Positions 35,016-39,464 of a stretch of DNA of 64,000 nt are shown here, in pieces (within the stretch, counting starts at the first letter, position 1; each line of letters begins with the position of its first letter). A program made the translations under genes and the position numbers. Source of the stretch: Hellea sp. (GTDB lineage Bacteria > Pseudomonadota > Alphaproteobacteria > Caulobacterales > Maricaulaceae). Under the pieces are notes generated by a model that did not search any database, was not told the DNA's origin, and was given only the letters and a program-made list of their open reading frames with translations. Location: assembly GCA_020629545.1 (NCBI GenBank), contig JAHDDC010000009.1:1-64000 (forward strand), read 5' to 3'.

Positions 35016-36443
35016 ATGGTATCCCGTAAAGCAAAATGGTCCGCTTTGTTTAAAGAAGAAGCGCTGGAACCGCTAAAAATACGCCTAGAGGCATTTGTAA
35101 ATATGAATAACACCCGCATTTATCACGACAAACGATTCAAGTTCATCGGTGCAACAGCGCTCGTGGCAGCGGGCCTTATATGGATAGCGCCCGAAAGCCC
35201 TCCGGCGGAAGCAAAAGTCGATACCGATATTGTCAAAGCGGCCACGCCTGCAATTGATCTTAGCCGCGATGATATTTATCTTCTAAGCCATCCAGCGCCA
35301 GAAAAAGCCAAAACGCTAACGCTAAAATATGGCGACTCTCTTGGCCCGCTTCTGCAGAAAAATGGAATTGAGCCGAATGAGGCCTATGCGATTACCCAGA
35401 GCTTTGCCTCAGTTTATGACCCTCGCAAAGTCAAAGCCGGACAAGACTTTAAGCTTTTTTACGAGAATGGGCAGGTCAGCCACTTAACCTATAAGCCCAC
35501 AATCGAAAGAACCGTCTATGTGTCGCGGCAAGGCGAAATGGATTTTTCCGCGAAAGATGTGACAGCCGAGTTCAAAATGGAAACGGTCAGCGTCAAAGCC
35601 TCAATTGAGAATTCAATCTATCTTGATGCCAACTCGCTCGGGACACCTGACAAAGTCATTCAACAATTCGCAAATATATATGAGTATTCGGTCGATTTTC
35701 AGCGCGATATTCAGCCTGGCGATGAGTTCGAAATGTTCTTCGAGGTCGCAAAAGATAATAAGGGCAATATCGTCAAGGCCGGGGATCTTTTGTTCACAAG
35801 CTTTTCCCCGCGTGGAAAAAAGCTCGATTATTATCTCTATACCGACTCCAAGGGCCGCGAAAATTTCTATGACGCATCCGGAAAAACCGCAAAACGGAAA
35901 CTCCGGGCAACACCTGTGAATGGCGCCCGTCTTTCGTCGTCTTATGGGCGGCGACGTCACCCGATCCTCGGATACCGAAAAATGCATACGGGCGTAGATT
36001 TTGCGGCCCCAACGGGAACACCTATCATGGCTGCGGGAAACGGCACTGTTGAATATGCCGGGCGAAATGGCGGTTATGGAAATTATATAAGAATTCGCCA
36101 CACAGATGGTTACAAAACGGCCTATGCCCACCTATCCAAATTTGCGACCCGCAAAGGCCGCTATGTCAAACAGGATCAGATTATCGGTTATGTGGGATCA
36201 ACGGGCCGGTCAACGGGGCCGCACCTGCATTACGAAGTTCACCATCACGGTAAGAAAATCAATCCGCGACGCCTGTCACAGCTTTCAGGGAAACCGCTTT
36301 CAAACAGCGAAATGCCGGCCTTTGAAAAACGTCGCGGCGAGCTTGACCGTCTGCGGGACCAAGCCCCAATACTACAAAAAGAGCCGGTCCAGAGCGTAGA
36401 ATTAATCAATAGCGAAAGCCCTGAAATACCGGCGATCGATTAG
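35016..36443 (+). CDS. M23 family metallopeptidase
   Basis: HTGVDFAAPTGTPI...GYGNYIRIRH...YAHLSKF...GRSTGPHLHYEV. Confidence 0.93.
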   Translation: MVSRKAKWSALFKEEALEPLKIRLEAFVNMNNTRIYHDKRFKFIGATALVAAGLIWIAPESPPAEAKVDTDIVKAATPAIDLSRDDIYLLSHPAPEKAKTLTLKYGDSLGPLLQKNGIEPNEAYAITQSFASVYDPRKVKAGQDFKLFYENGQVSHLTYKPTIERTVYVSRQGEMDFSAKDVTAEFKMETVSVKASIENSIYLDANSLGTPDKVIQQFANIYEYSVDFQRDIQPGDEFEMFFEVAKDNKGNIVKAGDLLFTSFSPRGKKLDYYLYTDSKGRENFYDASGKTAKRKLRATPVNGARLSSSYGRRRHPILGYRKMHTGVDFAAPTGTPIMAAGNGTVEYAGRNGGYGNYIRIRHTDGYKTAYAHLSKFATRKGRYVKQDQIIGYVGSTGRSTGPHLHYEVHHHGKKINPRRLSQLSGKPLSNSEMPAFEKRRGELDRLRDQAPILQKEPVQSVELINSESPEIPAID

Positions 36444-36450
36444 ATTTTCA
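36443..36450. repeat. target site duplication (left copy) GATTTTCA
   Basis: Identical 8-mer flanks the element at 39457..39464. Confidence 0.93.
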
Positions 36451-36470
36451 GGCAGTGGGTCAGTTTGAAA
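36451..36470 (+). repeat. left terminal inverted repeat
   Basis: GGCAGTGGGTCAGTTTGAAA. Confidence 0.94.
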
Positions 36471-36512
36471 TTAGGCCCTAGAATATATATGATTTGACCT
36501 TATATATCTCTC

Positions 36513-36737
36513 ATGACCAAAATTACATGTAGTTGCGGCGCGGTTTACTTGGAAAAAAAGCACAAACTGACAATGCGAGATAAAGACAAAAAGCACTGTC
36601 AGCTTTGCGGTGAAGTTATTAGTTCTTGGAACGGCGCAGTTATGTACACATATGAGCTAATATCGCGACCAGAAAACTCCAATGATTTAAACTTATCAGC
36701 AAAATCTATTGTTGATAAAATCACCAAATCTAACTGA
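36513..36737 (+). CDS. small zinc-ribbon-like protein (74 aa)
   Basis: CSCGAVY...KKHCQLCGEVISSWNG: CxC and CxxC knuckles. Inside the transposon. Confidence 0.7.
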   Translation: MTKITCSCGAVYLEKKHKLTMRDKDKKHCQLCGEVISSWNGAVMYTYELISRPENSNDLNLSAKSIVDKITKSN

Positions 36738-37887
36738 AGAGCGGCAACCCCTCGCCAGGCTTATAGGACTTTTTCTTGAATGGGTCGTATGTCATTTTAG
36801 GGGGCCGCGCCTTGTCACGAATTTCTAAAATTTGCCGTGAAGCAGTATAATACCTTCCGCGCTTTTCACCATTCGCAATTAAAAGTCCAGCTTCAGCTAT
36901 AGCTGTAAGGTCTCGACTTCCAGTATTCTCAGATACATCTGCACTTAAAATATATGAGGCGCGGCGCACTTTTAGGCCCATAGAGGCCTCAACTAGCGCC
37001 AGTGCACATCTTGGCGGCAAGTTGTTGTCTAAGACGAGTGTGTAAAACTCCTTGAAGGTATTGTTTACCTCTTGAATACGTCTTAGGTGTGTCCCGGCCT
37101 GCCTGTAGTGCGCGGTCAAACAAAATCTAACCCACGGTTTAGCGTCGCGCTCAGGATTCCAGCTTCCACCCCCTACTTCCGCCAGTACGTCGTAGTATTC
37201 TTGTTGGTTGTGCCCGATATACTCTTCAATGCTAGAGAAGATTGGAGCAATCACACCATCATTGGCCATAACGGCAGTCTGCAAGCCCCTAGCGACACGT
37301 CCGTTCCCATCTGAAAAGGGGTGCATTATTGTTAGATTTAGGTGGGTCATAGCAGCCTGAAGCATTTTGGCCTCATTTGGCGCGTTCATATATCTTATCA
37401 ACTCGTCAAGAAGATCATTTAATATTGCTCTATCTGCCCCCTCGTGAACATATTCGCCTGTGCGAGTGCTTCTCACGCCGATCCAGCCGGGCCTTAGCTG
37501 ACCCGGACGCGCTTTAAGGTCATGCTGGGTAATCATATAATGGATCGCGAGGATATTATCTAAGCTGAACTTAAAGCTTGGACGTCTTACCTGCTGCAAA
37601 ATAAATCCCATTGCCTCTTGATACCCGCGAACAGCAGAGTAGGTTTCACGGTCTGCTTCTGATGGGTCAGTATTATCGATGACAGCTAGCGCATCTTCAT
37701 CCGATACGTGAATATCCTCAATCTCATTTGTTGCACGCAGCGCCTTTGCTCTAGTAATTCGGGATAGCAATCCGCTCCAGCGCCTTGGCTCTTGCTGGAC
37801 GTAACTTCTAAGCGCTTCCCTCATCTCAAATATGCGGTTTACGACGCGAAGCTCATCCTCATCATAAGAACGATATGTGAACAACAT
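36730..37887 (-). CDS. Fic family protein (putative AMPylase), C-terminal winged-helix-like region
   Basis: HPFSDGNGRVAR matches HPFx[D/E]GNGRxxR. Start set to MLFTYRSYDEDE at 37887. Confidence 0.92.
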   Translation of the reverse strand: MLFTYRSYDEDELRVVNRIFEMREALRSYVQQEPRRWSGLLSRITRAKALRATNEIEDIHVSDEDALAVIDNTDPSEADRETYSAVRGYQEAMGFILQQVRRPSFKFSLDNILAIHYMITQHDLKARPGQLRPGWIGVRSTRTGEYVHEGADRAILNDLLDELIRYMNAPNEAKMLQAAMTHLNLTIMHPFSDGNGRVARGLQTAVMANDGVIAPIFSSIEEYIGHNQQEYYDVLAEVGGGSWNPERDAKPWVRFCLTAHYRQAGTHLRRIQEVNNTFKEFYTLVLDNNLPPRCALALVEASMGLKVRRASYILSADVSENTGSRDLTAIAEAGLLIANGEKRGRYYTASRQILEIRDKARPPKMTYDPFKKKSYKPGEGLPLFS

Positions 37888-37937
37888 GAGTGTTTCCCTT
37901 TTAGTATTTGTCAAGGAGATATTATAATAACAACCAA

Positions 37938-37958
37938 ATGTCAATTATTAATTGACAT
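37938..37958. promoter_or_regulatory. 21-bp perfect palindrome (odd centre) between divergent fic and transposase genes
   Basis: ATGTCAATTA-T-TAATTGACAT; a second imperfect inverted repeat, ATAACACC-AAAT-GGTGGTTAT, overlaps it by 2 nt at 37957..37977. Confidence 0.7.
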
Positions 37959-37986
37959 AACACCAAATGGTGGTTATATAAACACC

Positions 37987-38874
37987 ATGAATAGACCGGA
38001 CACAAAAGAACGCGCTCAAATCCTGCAGATGCTTTGTGAGGGCATGGCAATCCGCGCCGTCGCTCGCATTACTGGAAGAAGTAAAAATACGATCTCGAAG
38101 CTTCTGGTGGATGCTGGCAAGGTCTGTAGCGCTTATCAAGACGAACACTTCCGCGATCTGGAAGCGCGCCGCGTTGAGGTCGACGAAATCTGGTCATTCG
38201 TATATACCAAGAAAAAGAATGTAGCTAAAGCTAAGGATGCGCCAGAAGGTGCGGGTGATATCTGGACTTGGACTGCAATCGACGCTGATAGCAAGCTGGT
38301 TATGTCTTGGCTCGTTGGTGGCCGCGACGGCGAATACGCATTGTCGTTCATGGACGACATGAAAAGCCGCCTTGCTAATCGGGTCCAGCTTACTTCTGAC
38401 GGTCATAGAGCGTATCTGGATGCTGTAGAAGAAGCTTTCGGCGCTGACGTAGACTATGCCCAATTGGTTAAGATGTATGGCAATGCGCCGGAAACCTTTA
38501 GAGGCCGCTACAGCCCCGCAACATGCACAGGCATCAAGAAAACCCGTATAGAGGGAGACCCTGATACTCATAAGGTCAGCACTTCTTACGTTGAGCGCCA
38601 GAACCTGACAATGCGGATGCACAATCGCCGCTTTACTCGCCTGACAAATGCCTTTTCAAAAAAGGTCGAAAATCATGAGGCATCAATCGCTCTTCACTTC
38701 ATGTACTATAACTTCGTCAAGATCCACAAGACGCTGAAATGCTCACCTGCTATGGCCGCAGGCGTCACCGATAAGCTTTGGGAAATGACCGATATCGTTT
38801 CAATGATTGAGCGCGCAGAGGAGCAAGGACGCCCAAAGAAACGCGGGCCATATAATAAAAAGAGGGCGGCGTAA
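37987..38874 (+). CDS. IS1-family-like DDE transposase (single ORF)
   Basis: HTH AVARITGRSKNTISKLLVDAG; VEVDEIWSF, LTSDGHRAYL and YVERQNLTMRMHNRRFTRLTNAFSKK catalytic blocks. Confidence 0.9.
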   Translation: MNRPDTKERAQILQMLCEGMAIRAVARITGRSKNTISKLLVDAGKVCSAYQDEHFRDLEARRVEVDEIWSFVYTKKKNVAKAKDAPEGAGDIWTWTAIDADSKLVMSWLVGGRDGEYALSFMDDMKSRLANRVQLTSDGHRAYLDAVEEAFGADVDYAQLVKMYGNAPETFRGRYSPATCTGIKKTRIEGDPDTHKVSTSYVERQNLTMRMHNRRFTRLTNAFSKKVENHEASIALHFMYYNFVKIHKTLKCSPAMAAGVTDKLWEMTDIVSMIERAEEQGRPKKRGPYNKKRAA

Positions 38875-38876
38875 AA

Positions 38877-39278
38877 ATGCCAATTAGTTTTTTCCCAAGA
38901 GCAGGGCAAATTTTTACCTGCAACTTTAAAGGCTTTGTTGCTCCAGAAATGGTCAAAATAAGGCCGGTTATTGTTATTTCACCGAGGCTGCCGGGCCGAT
39001 CTGAAATCGTAGCTGTGGTACCGATAAGCCTTACGCCCCCAAACAAGGAATATCCGTTTACTGTCCGGTTATCAAAAAATTACCATCCAGACGAAGAGGA
39101 TGATTTACCTTGCTGGGCCAAATGTGATATGATTTTGAATATTTCAAAAGATAGGCTTTCTTCATTTAAGGTTGGTCGAAGGAAGTGGCATACACCGAAC
39201 GCCTCAGCAGAGGATTTACGAGCGGTTAAGGACGGCGTGATACATGGATTAGGTAGAGGGGACTTGCTAAGTCAGTAA
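38877..39278 (+). CDS. PemK/MazF-like toxin family protein
   Basis: AGQIFTCNFKG...KIRPVIVISPRLPGRSEIVAVVPIS fold signature; 2 nt after the transposase stop. Confidence 0.82.
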   Translation: MPISFFPRAGQIFTCNFKGFVAPEMVKIRPVIVISPRLPGRSEIVAVVPISLTPPNKEYPFTVRLSKNYHPDEEDDLPCWAKCDMILNISKDRLSSFKVGRRKWHTPNASAEDLRAVKDGVIHGLGRGDLLSQ

Positions 39279-39298
39279 AAAACCCTTATATATTCTGA

Positions 39299-39420
39299 GT
39301 ATCCCGGTCTTCGGGCTTTAAGACCTAGATTACTAGGCAGGGTGCTCACCGAGCGATGACAAGCTCAGAGTAGCCTAGATAATGTCAATGTCCTTAACCC
39401 TGCTCCGGCAGGGTTTCGTA
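39299..39420 (+). ncRNA. putative structured noncoding RNA at right end of the transposon
   Basis: No ORF; helices GGTCTT/AAGACC, ATTACTAGGC/GCCTAGaTAAT, GAGC/GCTC and 8-bp AACCCTGC-TCCG-GCAGGGTT; promoter-like TTGCTA-17nt-TTATAT just upstream. Confidence 0.6.
39396..39416 (+). terminator. terminator-like hairpin AACCCTGC-TCCG-GCAGGGTT-T
   Basis: Perfect 8-bp stem with tetraloop, but only a short U run. Confidence 0.5.
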
Positions 39421-39436
39421 TTTCTGGAAAACAATT

Positions 39437-39456
39437 TTTCAAACTGACCCACTACC
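39437..39456 (-). repeat. right terminal inverted repeat
   Basis: TTTCAAACTGACCCACTACC. Confidence 0.94.
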
Positions 39457-39464
39457 GATTTTCA
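39457..39464. repeat. target site duplication (right copy) GATTTTCA
   Basis: Matches 36443..36450. Confidence 0.93.

Follow-up and report, generated by a model that had tools for sequence, protein, structure and literature searches.

A PemK/MazF-type gene and a conserved, candidate antitoxin RNA as cargo of an IS1-like transposon in Hellea

What is a structured noncoding stretch doing between a toxin-like gene and the right end of a transposon? The question is raised by a 64,000-nucleotide stretch of DNA from Hellea sp. (contig JAHDDC010000009.1, positions 1 to 64,000; hereafter the window), in which an IS1-like element at 36451-39456 carries three genes besides its transposase, among them a PemK/MazF-like gene (pemK), and one RNA. 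A first-pass annotation had proposed that this compact transposon combines two toxin-type enzymes, Fic and PemK, with an RNA, perhaps for element maintenance, host modulation or transposition control. Our analysis shows that the RNA accompanies pemK well beyond this transposon type, and we consider an antitoxin function for it probable.

The RNA family and its link to pemK

The pemK gene starts 2 nt past the transposase stop codon and is followed by the RNA. The relevant features, with lengths in amino acids (aa) and structural confidence as predicted local distance difference test (pLDDT), are:

38877..39278, + strand: PemK/MazF-fold toxin gene, 133 aa, with invariant R29 and S51 (PF02452, 1.6e-16; model pLDDT 94.8)
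39301..39378, + strand: conserved noncoding RNA core (covariance model R2, 43.8 bits)
39303-39315, 39324-39337 and 39340-39375, + strand: RNA stems P1, P2 and P3, with the P3 hairpin loop GAUGACAA at 39355-39362 (covariance model R2; family covariation)
39383..39387, + strand: UGUCA, proposed pseudoknot partner of UGACA at 39357-39361 in the P3 loop (sequence; family-wide loop-partner complementarity test)
39396..39424, + strand: intrinsic terminator hairpin and tail closing the RNA (terminator analysis; the hairpin also appears in a single-sequence fold)

The structured stretch noticed before the right terminal inverted repeat (TIR) in the first-pass annotation is thus a conserved, covarying RNA. 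Folding energy of single sequences is uninformative for this RNA, that of the window stretch lying only modestly below shuffles (z -1.8), so the case for its reality rests on comparative evidence, which is decisive where folding energy is modest. An initial MAFFT alignment mixed three registers of P2, and RNAalifold then recovered no more than the terminator and the inner stem of P3; a 14-sequence seed drawn from one P2 register gave a model, the model recruited more members, and these yielded a 57-sequence alignment. In this alignment (A6), 21 of 21 pairs show compensatory changes with both sides altered, 97.6% of cells are paired, and the covariation score is 0.758, against 0.219 when shuffled and at most 0.107 when slid. 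The seed (A5) was aligned independently of the model and gives the same picture, with 98.0% paired and a score of 0.434 (no more than 0.134 when slid). A search of Rfam 15 with the window sequence and 16 relatives returned no matching family, only chance-level U7, snoF1_F2 or unrelated RNAs, and we found no report of a PemK-linked RNA in the open-access literature. We regard the RNA family as established and previously uncatalogued.

To judge from the sequences, the RNA is probably also pseudoknotted. A strand further downstream complements the P3 hairpin loop (GANNNCAA); it is the terminator tail in most groups and UUGUC between P3 and the terminator in the group to which the window belongs. 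Loop and partner covary, GACAA/UUGUC being replaced by GCCAA/UUGGC in loci L103 and L104, and full loop/partner examples are GAACGCAAA/UUUGCGUUC in L089 and GAAUGCAAA/UUUGCAUUC in L255. Set against a given downstream strand, the P3 loop that belongs to it matches better than loops of other types (mean run 4.67 against 3.70; Wilcoxon p 1e-12, uncorrected for relatedness).

How tightly is the RNA bound to pemK? Matches to the covariance models were found in 139 of 145 non-redundant loci of the PemK clade (both models, R1 and R2; thresholds per search of E 0.1 for R1 and E 1 for R2, the weakest accepted match being L123 with E 0.42). Five of the six remaining loci look by eye like divergent versions, and one (L072) has none. 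The same RNA lies 3' of PemK relatives in unrelated surroundings: bacterial carriers include Alphaproteobacteria, Polaromonas, Nitrotoga, Oleispira, Pseudohongiella, Geobacter and an Acidobacteria bin, Bosea vaviloviae (L108) being one that is in culture, and other carriers are viral contigs, small Enterobacteriaceae plasmids (e.g. a 6.9-kb Citrobacter plasmid, L294) and Vibrio elements classed as Tectiliviricetes, in one of which (L287) the RNA match scores 21.8 bits. Two samples of 385 and 399 genomes, partly overlapping, contain 18 distinct RNA matches, 14 of them beside a PemK gene. PemK and the RNA form one unit, found mostly outside this transposon type, on phages, plasmids and chromosomes. 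That every PemK has the RNA is ruled out, the divergent PemK of E. coli / Klebsiella plasmids (L293, L295) and that of E. coli p5217 (L072) being without it. In the Vibrio elements L287 and L288 (PQ189291 and PQ189306), each of 13 kb, pemK is the terminal gene and follows a gene for a LexA-like repressor.

The RNA is a separate unit and not merely the 3' untranslated region (UTR) of pemK. In L120 (3473-3550, -) and L145 (3422-3510, -) it is encoded on the other strand and converges on pemK; it is upstream of pemK in L234, with weaker upstream matches in L097 and L123; and on one viral contig two different copies flank a single pemK (L253, 2427-2507 and 3447-3527). Opposite-strand, upstream and both-side copies would be expected of a partner that acts separately, and not of a simple 3' UTR.

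The protein partner is predicted to be a MazF-fold enzyme. Best PDB matches to its modelled structure are all MazF-type (E about 1e-07), profile comparison also matches solved MazF structures, and in 41 of 41 clade members PemK_toxin was the only Pfam family matched, with no ToxN-, CptN- or TenpN-type family; PADLOC has no model for this PemK. R29 and S51 are among the invariant residues of the clade; aligned with Klebsiella MazF, they appear to be the counterparts of its Arg28 and Thr51, both reported to be critical (PMC8086154).

A probable RNA antitoxin and its rivals

If PemK is a toxin, what keeps it in check? No protein family recurs beside pemK in more than 14 of the 145 loci, and no MazE/PemI-type antitoxin is found among the neighbours; the commonest neighbour family is phage-repressor-like (14/145), followed by an XRE-type protein (8/145). 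Type III toxins share the MazF/Kid/CcdB fold and pair with a pseudoknotted RNA (PMC5086642), and for AbiF, a further toxin that comes with a conserved RNA motif, recent work found neutralisation by the RNA (PMC12373285). In AvcID a conserved RNA beside a toxic protein is reported to be an RNA antitoxin (PMC10511110). Since no protein antitoxin recurs, type III systems pair this very fold with pseudoknotted RNA, and AbiF is neutralised by RNA, an RNA antitoxin is the simplest reading. We therefore think it probable that the pair is a type III-like system, in which a single-copy, downstream and probably pseudoknotted RNA is antitoxin to a ribonuclease of the MazF fold, here on an IS1-family element with interchangeable cargo.

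We infer toxicity, RNA-protein binding, neutralisation and a biological role as follows. PemK would cleave RNA and halt growth. The folded RNA (a core of about 80 nt with three hairpins, the P3-loop pseudoknot and the terminator) would accumulate in excess and bind PemK directly, as ToxI binds ToxN. Were the element lost, or transcription shut down (e.g. by a phage), the RNA would decay before the protein and PemK would be freed, and this release may stabilise the element or defend the host. We lean, moreover, towards the wider view that these pairs make up a widespread toxin-antitoxin system of a new kind: a downstream RNA, pseudoknotted and mostly single-copy, would act in trans to control a true PemK/MazF ribonuclease, phages, plasmids and IS1-like transposons would carry the system about, and orphan copies of the RNA would be decoy antitoxins.

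The likeness to known systems is partial. With type III systems (ToxIN, CptIN, TenpIN) the pair has in common a MazF/Kid/CcdB-fold protein (here predicted), a structured pseudoknotted RNA (here proposed) and an intrinsic terminator, but profiles place the protein in Pfam PemK_toxin and in none of the ToxN-type families. Toxin family and fold are the same as in the type II systems MazEF and PemIK, which, unlike the 145 loci, have a MazE/PemI-type protein antitoxin. AbiF with its RNA RCd22 (Rfam RF03085) and AvcID are alike in having a conserved RNA adjoining a toxic protein, although their toxins are unrelated (Abi_2/HEPN and a deoxycytidylate deaminase, respectively) and the abiF RNA is upstream and repeated.

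Several observations weigh against an RNA antitoxin. Type III RNAs are tandem repeats upstream of the toxin (PMC5086642, PMC12373285), whereas this one is mostly single-copy and downstream. With few exceptions it follows pemK on the same strand, an arrangement that would also suit a 3'-UTR regulator or a cleavage substrate. In four loci (L262, L265, L267 and L291, from genomes G247, G159, G169 and G570, respectively) the RNA occurs with no PemK in the fetched flanks; these copies are possibly orphan antitoxins, or RNAs with other partners. The proposed pseudoknot of the window comprises five pairs only, S51 aligns where MazF has its catalytic Thr, for which Ser appears plausible, and none of the statistics (shuffles, permutations, Wilcoxon test) allows for relatedness. 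As a separate observation, the RNA copy in L262 follows a small gene resembling DUF2335.

The arrangement downstream of pemK lends itself to another explanation, namely that the RNA is a cis-acting 3' UTR, either a stability element with a terminator or a site of PemK self-cleavage limiting its own mRNA. In the great majority of loci the RNA is indeed encoded on the pemK strand, begins no more than about 100 nt past the stop codon and closes with a terminator. However, the opposite-strand, upstream and flanking copies described above and the four orphan copies cannot act in this way, and PemK would be left without any recurring antitoxin; we regard this explanation as unlikely. Another reading is a type II arrangement, with a protein antitoxin encoded elsewhere or supplied by differing, unrelated neighbours (such as phage-repressor-like or XRE proteins), and the RNA having a separate regulatory task. 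MazF toxins are normally paired with MazE-type partners, phage-repressor-like and XRE genes do occur near pemK at the frequencies given above, and in the Vibrio elements pemK comes after a LexA-like gene. Yet most loci have neither a phage-repressor-like nor an XRE gene, and within transposons the gene ahead of pemK is that of the transposase in the window and L179 and P63C in L110, which leaves such a partner improbable.

Finally, the RNA could belong to the transposon, as a transposase regulator or end structure, with its place after pemK incidental; its position in the window and in L178, immediately ahead of the right TIR, fits this, and the first-pass annotation had suggested transposition control. 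The distribution contradicts it: in the class-wide scan no RNA match other than that of the window sits at one of the IS1-like elements of the 24-element search described below, and many loci have the RNA after pemK but, within the flanks fetched, no IS1-like end. What the RNA accompanies is PemK, not the transposase, and a role in the transposon itself is very hard to credit.

The transposon and its interchangeable cargo

How, then, did the pemK-RNA pair come to lie in this element? Its other features are:

36443..36450, no strand: left target-site duplication (TSD) GATTTTCA (the same eight letters as 39457-39464)
36451..36470, + strand: left TIR GGCAGTGGGTCAGTTTGAAA (consensus common to sibling elements)
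36513..36737, + strand: small CxC/CxxC zinc-ribbon-like protein, 74 aa (53% identity over 51 aa to the left-end protein of L179)
36730..37890, - strand: Fic-domain protein, 386 aa, motif HPFSDGNGRVAR (PF02661, 2.2e-11; PADLOC SoFic model, 1.8e-46; solved Fic/SoFic structures)
37987..38874, + strand: IS1-family DDE transposase, single open reading frame, 295 aa (PF03400; relatives annotated as IS1 family transposase)
39437..39456, - strand: right TIR (95% complementary to the left TIR)
39457..39464, no strand: right TSD GATTTTCA

The element itself is established. Its TIRs, 20 nt each and matching at 19 of 20 positions, are flanked by an exact 8-bp TSD, and the unit, 3,006 bp long, is present in a single copy in its genome (3.59 Mb, 155 contigs searched). 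The genes on either side, for an M23 peptidase and a DUF4282 protein, are close neighbours in eight same-genus genomes, with no large insert between them in seven of the eight, as against about 3.1 kb in the window. Given the matched ends, the duplication and the closeness of the flanking genes in these genomes, 36451-39456 is a complete IS1-family insertion that is not present in siblings of the same genus. In one same-genus genome (L283) about 1.1 kb lies between the two genes, perhaps a different insertion in the same place.

Both the ends and the gene content read in the first pass (single-frame transposase, opposite-strand Fic, adjoining PemK and CxC/CxxC protein) are borne out, the latter by open reading frames and profiles. 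The transposase matches DDE_Tnp_IS1 (PF03400) at 1e-07, above the Pfam cutoff, and its best NCBIfam model is transpos_IS1 (NF033558) with 65 bits, under that model's cutoff of 100. IS1-type features are present in the TIR of about 20 bp starting GGT and the 8-bp duplication, within the norm of 8-9 bp; in being 3,006 bp long and carrying cargo, the element departs from the short, transposase-only form. That classical members carry only a transposase holds for IS1 itself but not for this branch.

The TIR consensus GGTAGTG(TC/GG)TCAGTTTGAAA and an exact 8-bp duplication bound 24 other elements in Alphaproteobacteria, and five further elements with the same kind of ends and duplication bring the relatives to 29 (30 with that of the window), so the match in the window is not due to chance. 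Among 385 genomes of the class, 37 have relatives of the transposase, in most cases a single copy; the sibling elements are mostly 2.6-4.0 kb long, and cargo is mostly present. Compared with IS1 insertion sequences, the group is alike in its PF03400 DDE transposase, TIR starting GGTAGTG and 8-bp duplication, but unlike them in its single-frame 295-aa transposase, its length of 2.6-4 kb with cargo and its usually one or few copies per genome. No report of such a cargo-bearing IS1 group was found in the open-access literature.

Near the left end of nearly all group elements lies a gene for a small basic protein (MPKGPKGEKRPADVIG...) without a Pfam match, annotated 'histone H1' in Mesorhizobium; it was seen in 28 sibling elements (e.g. 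L034:10654-10893, -) and is perhaps a conserved DNA- or RNA-binding helper. The window element lacks it and has instead the zinc-ribbon-like protein, for which profile searches gave no family above cutoff and which it has in common with L179, an element carrying both. Other sibling cargo comprises XRE with an ImmA/IrrE-type peptidase, P63C, GNAT, SocA/Panacea, a HipA-like kinase with DUF3037, nSTAND NTPase, BRO-N and ParA-like proteins. Cargo is interchangeable among the elements of this little-noticed IS1-like branch. RES-Xre genes by an Acidiphilium element were dropped as cargo, being positioned outside or across the TIR. A compound-like unit of 9.1 kb (L037:6723-15846), with an exact 8-bp duplication, has two transposase copies enclosing a 1302-aa protein.

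The PemK-RNA pair is found in three other intact elements with exact TSDs (L105, L110 and L179). Those of the window, L110 and L179 sit on separate transposase branches, the well supported branches forcing at least two changes, and pemK is divergent from the transposase in L105 and L110 and 3' of it in the window and L179. Separate transposase branches and differing orientation show that the pair is a module captured repeatedly by transposons.

Fic, too, is recurring transposon cargo, separate and interchangeable, and not tied to PemK. The protein has the core motif HxFx(D/E)GNGRxxR, and its N-terminal TNEIED resembles the class II inhibitory motif (S/T)xxxE(G/N) with a deviant last residue. 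Homologues of 40-43% identity occur in two of the 36 other genomes having this transposase; each of the two is divergent from a degenerate IS1-like transposase, the arrangement of the window, and has a TIR-like end close by, which marks Fic as recurring cargo. In its core and inhibitory-like motifs the window protein is like SoFic-type class II Fic proteins, but it is transposon-borne, and the last residue of its inhibitory-like motif is D, whereas the L275 and L276 siblings read SNxIEG.

The view of a cargo transposon with two toxin-type enzymes and an RNA therefore stands as regards a recurring, cargo-bearing element, but not as regards one combined module, Fic being separate and PemK with its RNA one unit. 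The association was to be judged accidental if relatives lacked the cargo as a rule: they do lack the full Fic/PemK/RNA set, but cargo of some kind is the rule, and independent insertions have the same ends and duplications with varying genes. As Fic and the PemK-RNA pair each recur in related elements, the cargo association is not accidental.

Meaning for toxin-antitoxin biology

If the RNA is indeed the antitoxin, hundreds of genes annotated as type II PemK/MazF toxins without an antitoxin would gain an RNA partner. MazF (type II) and ToxN (type III) are known to have the same fold and different kinds of antitoxin; an RNA-paired PemK/MazF clade would bridge the two types, and the origin of RNA antitoxins would become testable. 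The RNA, strongly covarying, simple to express and absent from Rfam 15, is found in small Enterobacteriaceae plasmids. Separately, IS1-like elements that exchange toxin- or defence-like cargo offer such modules a means of spreading that has drawn little notice.

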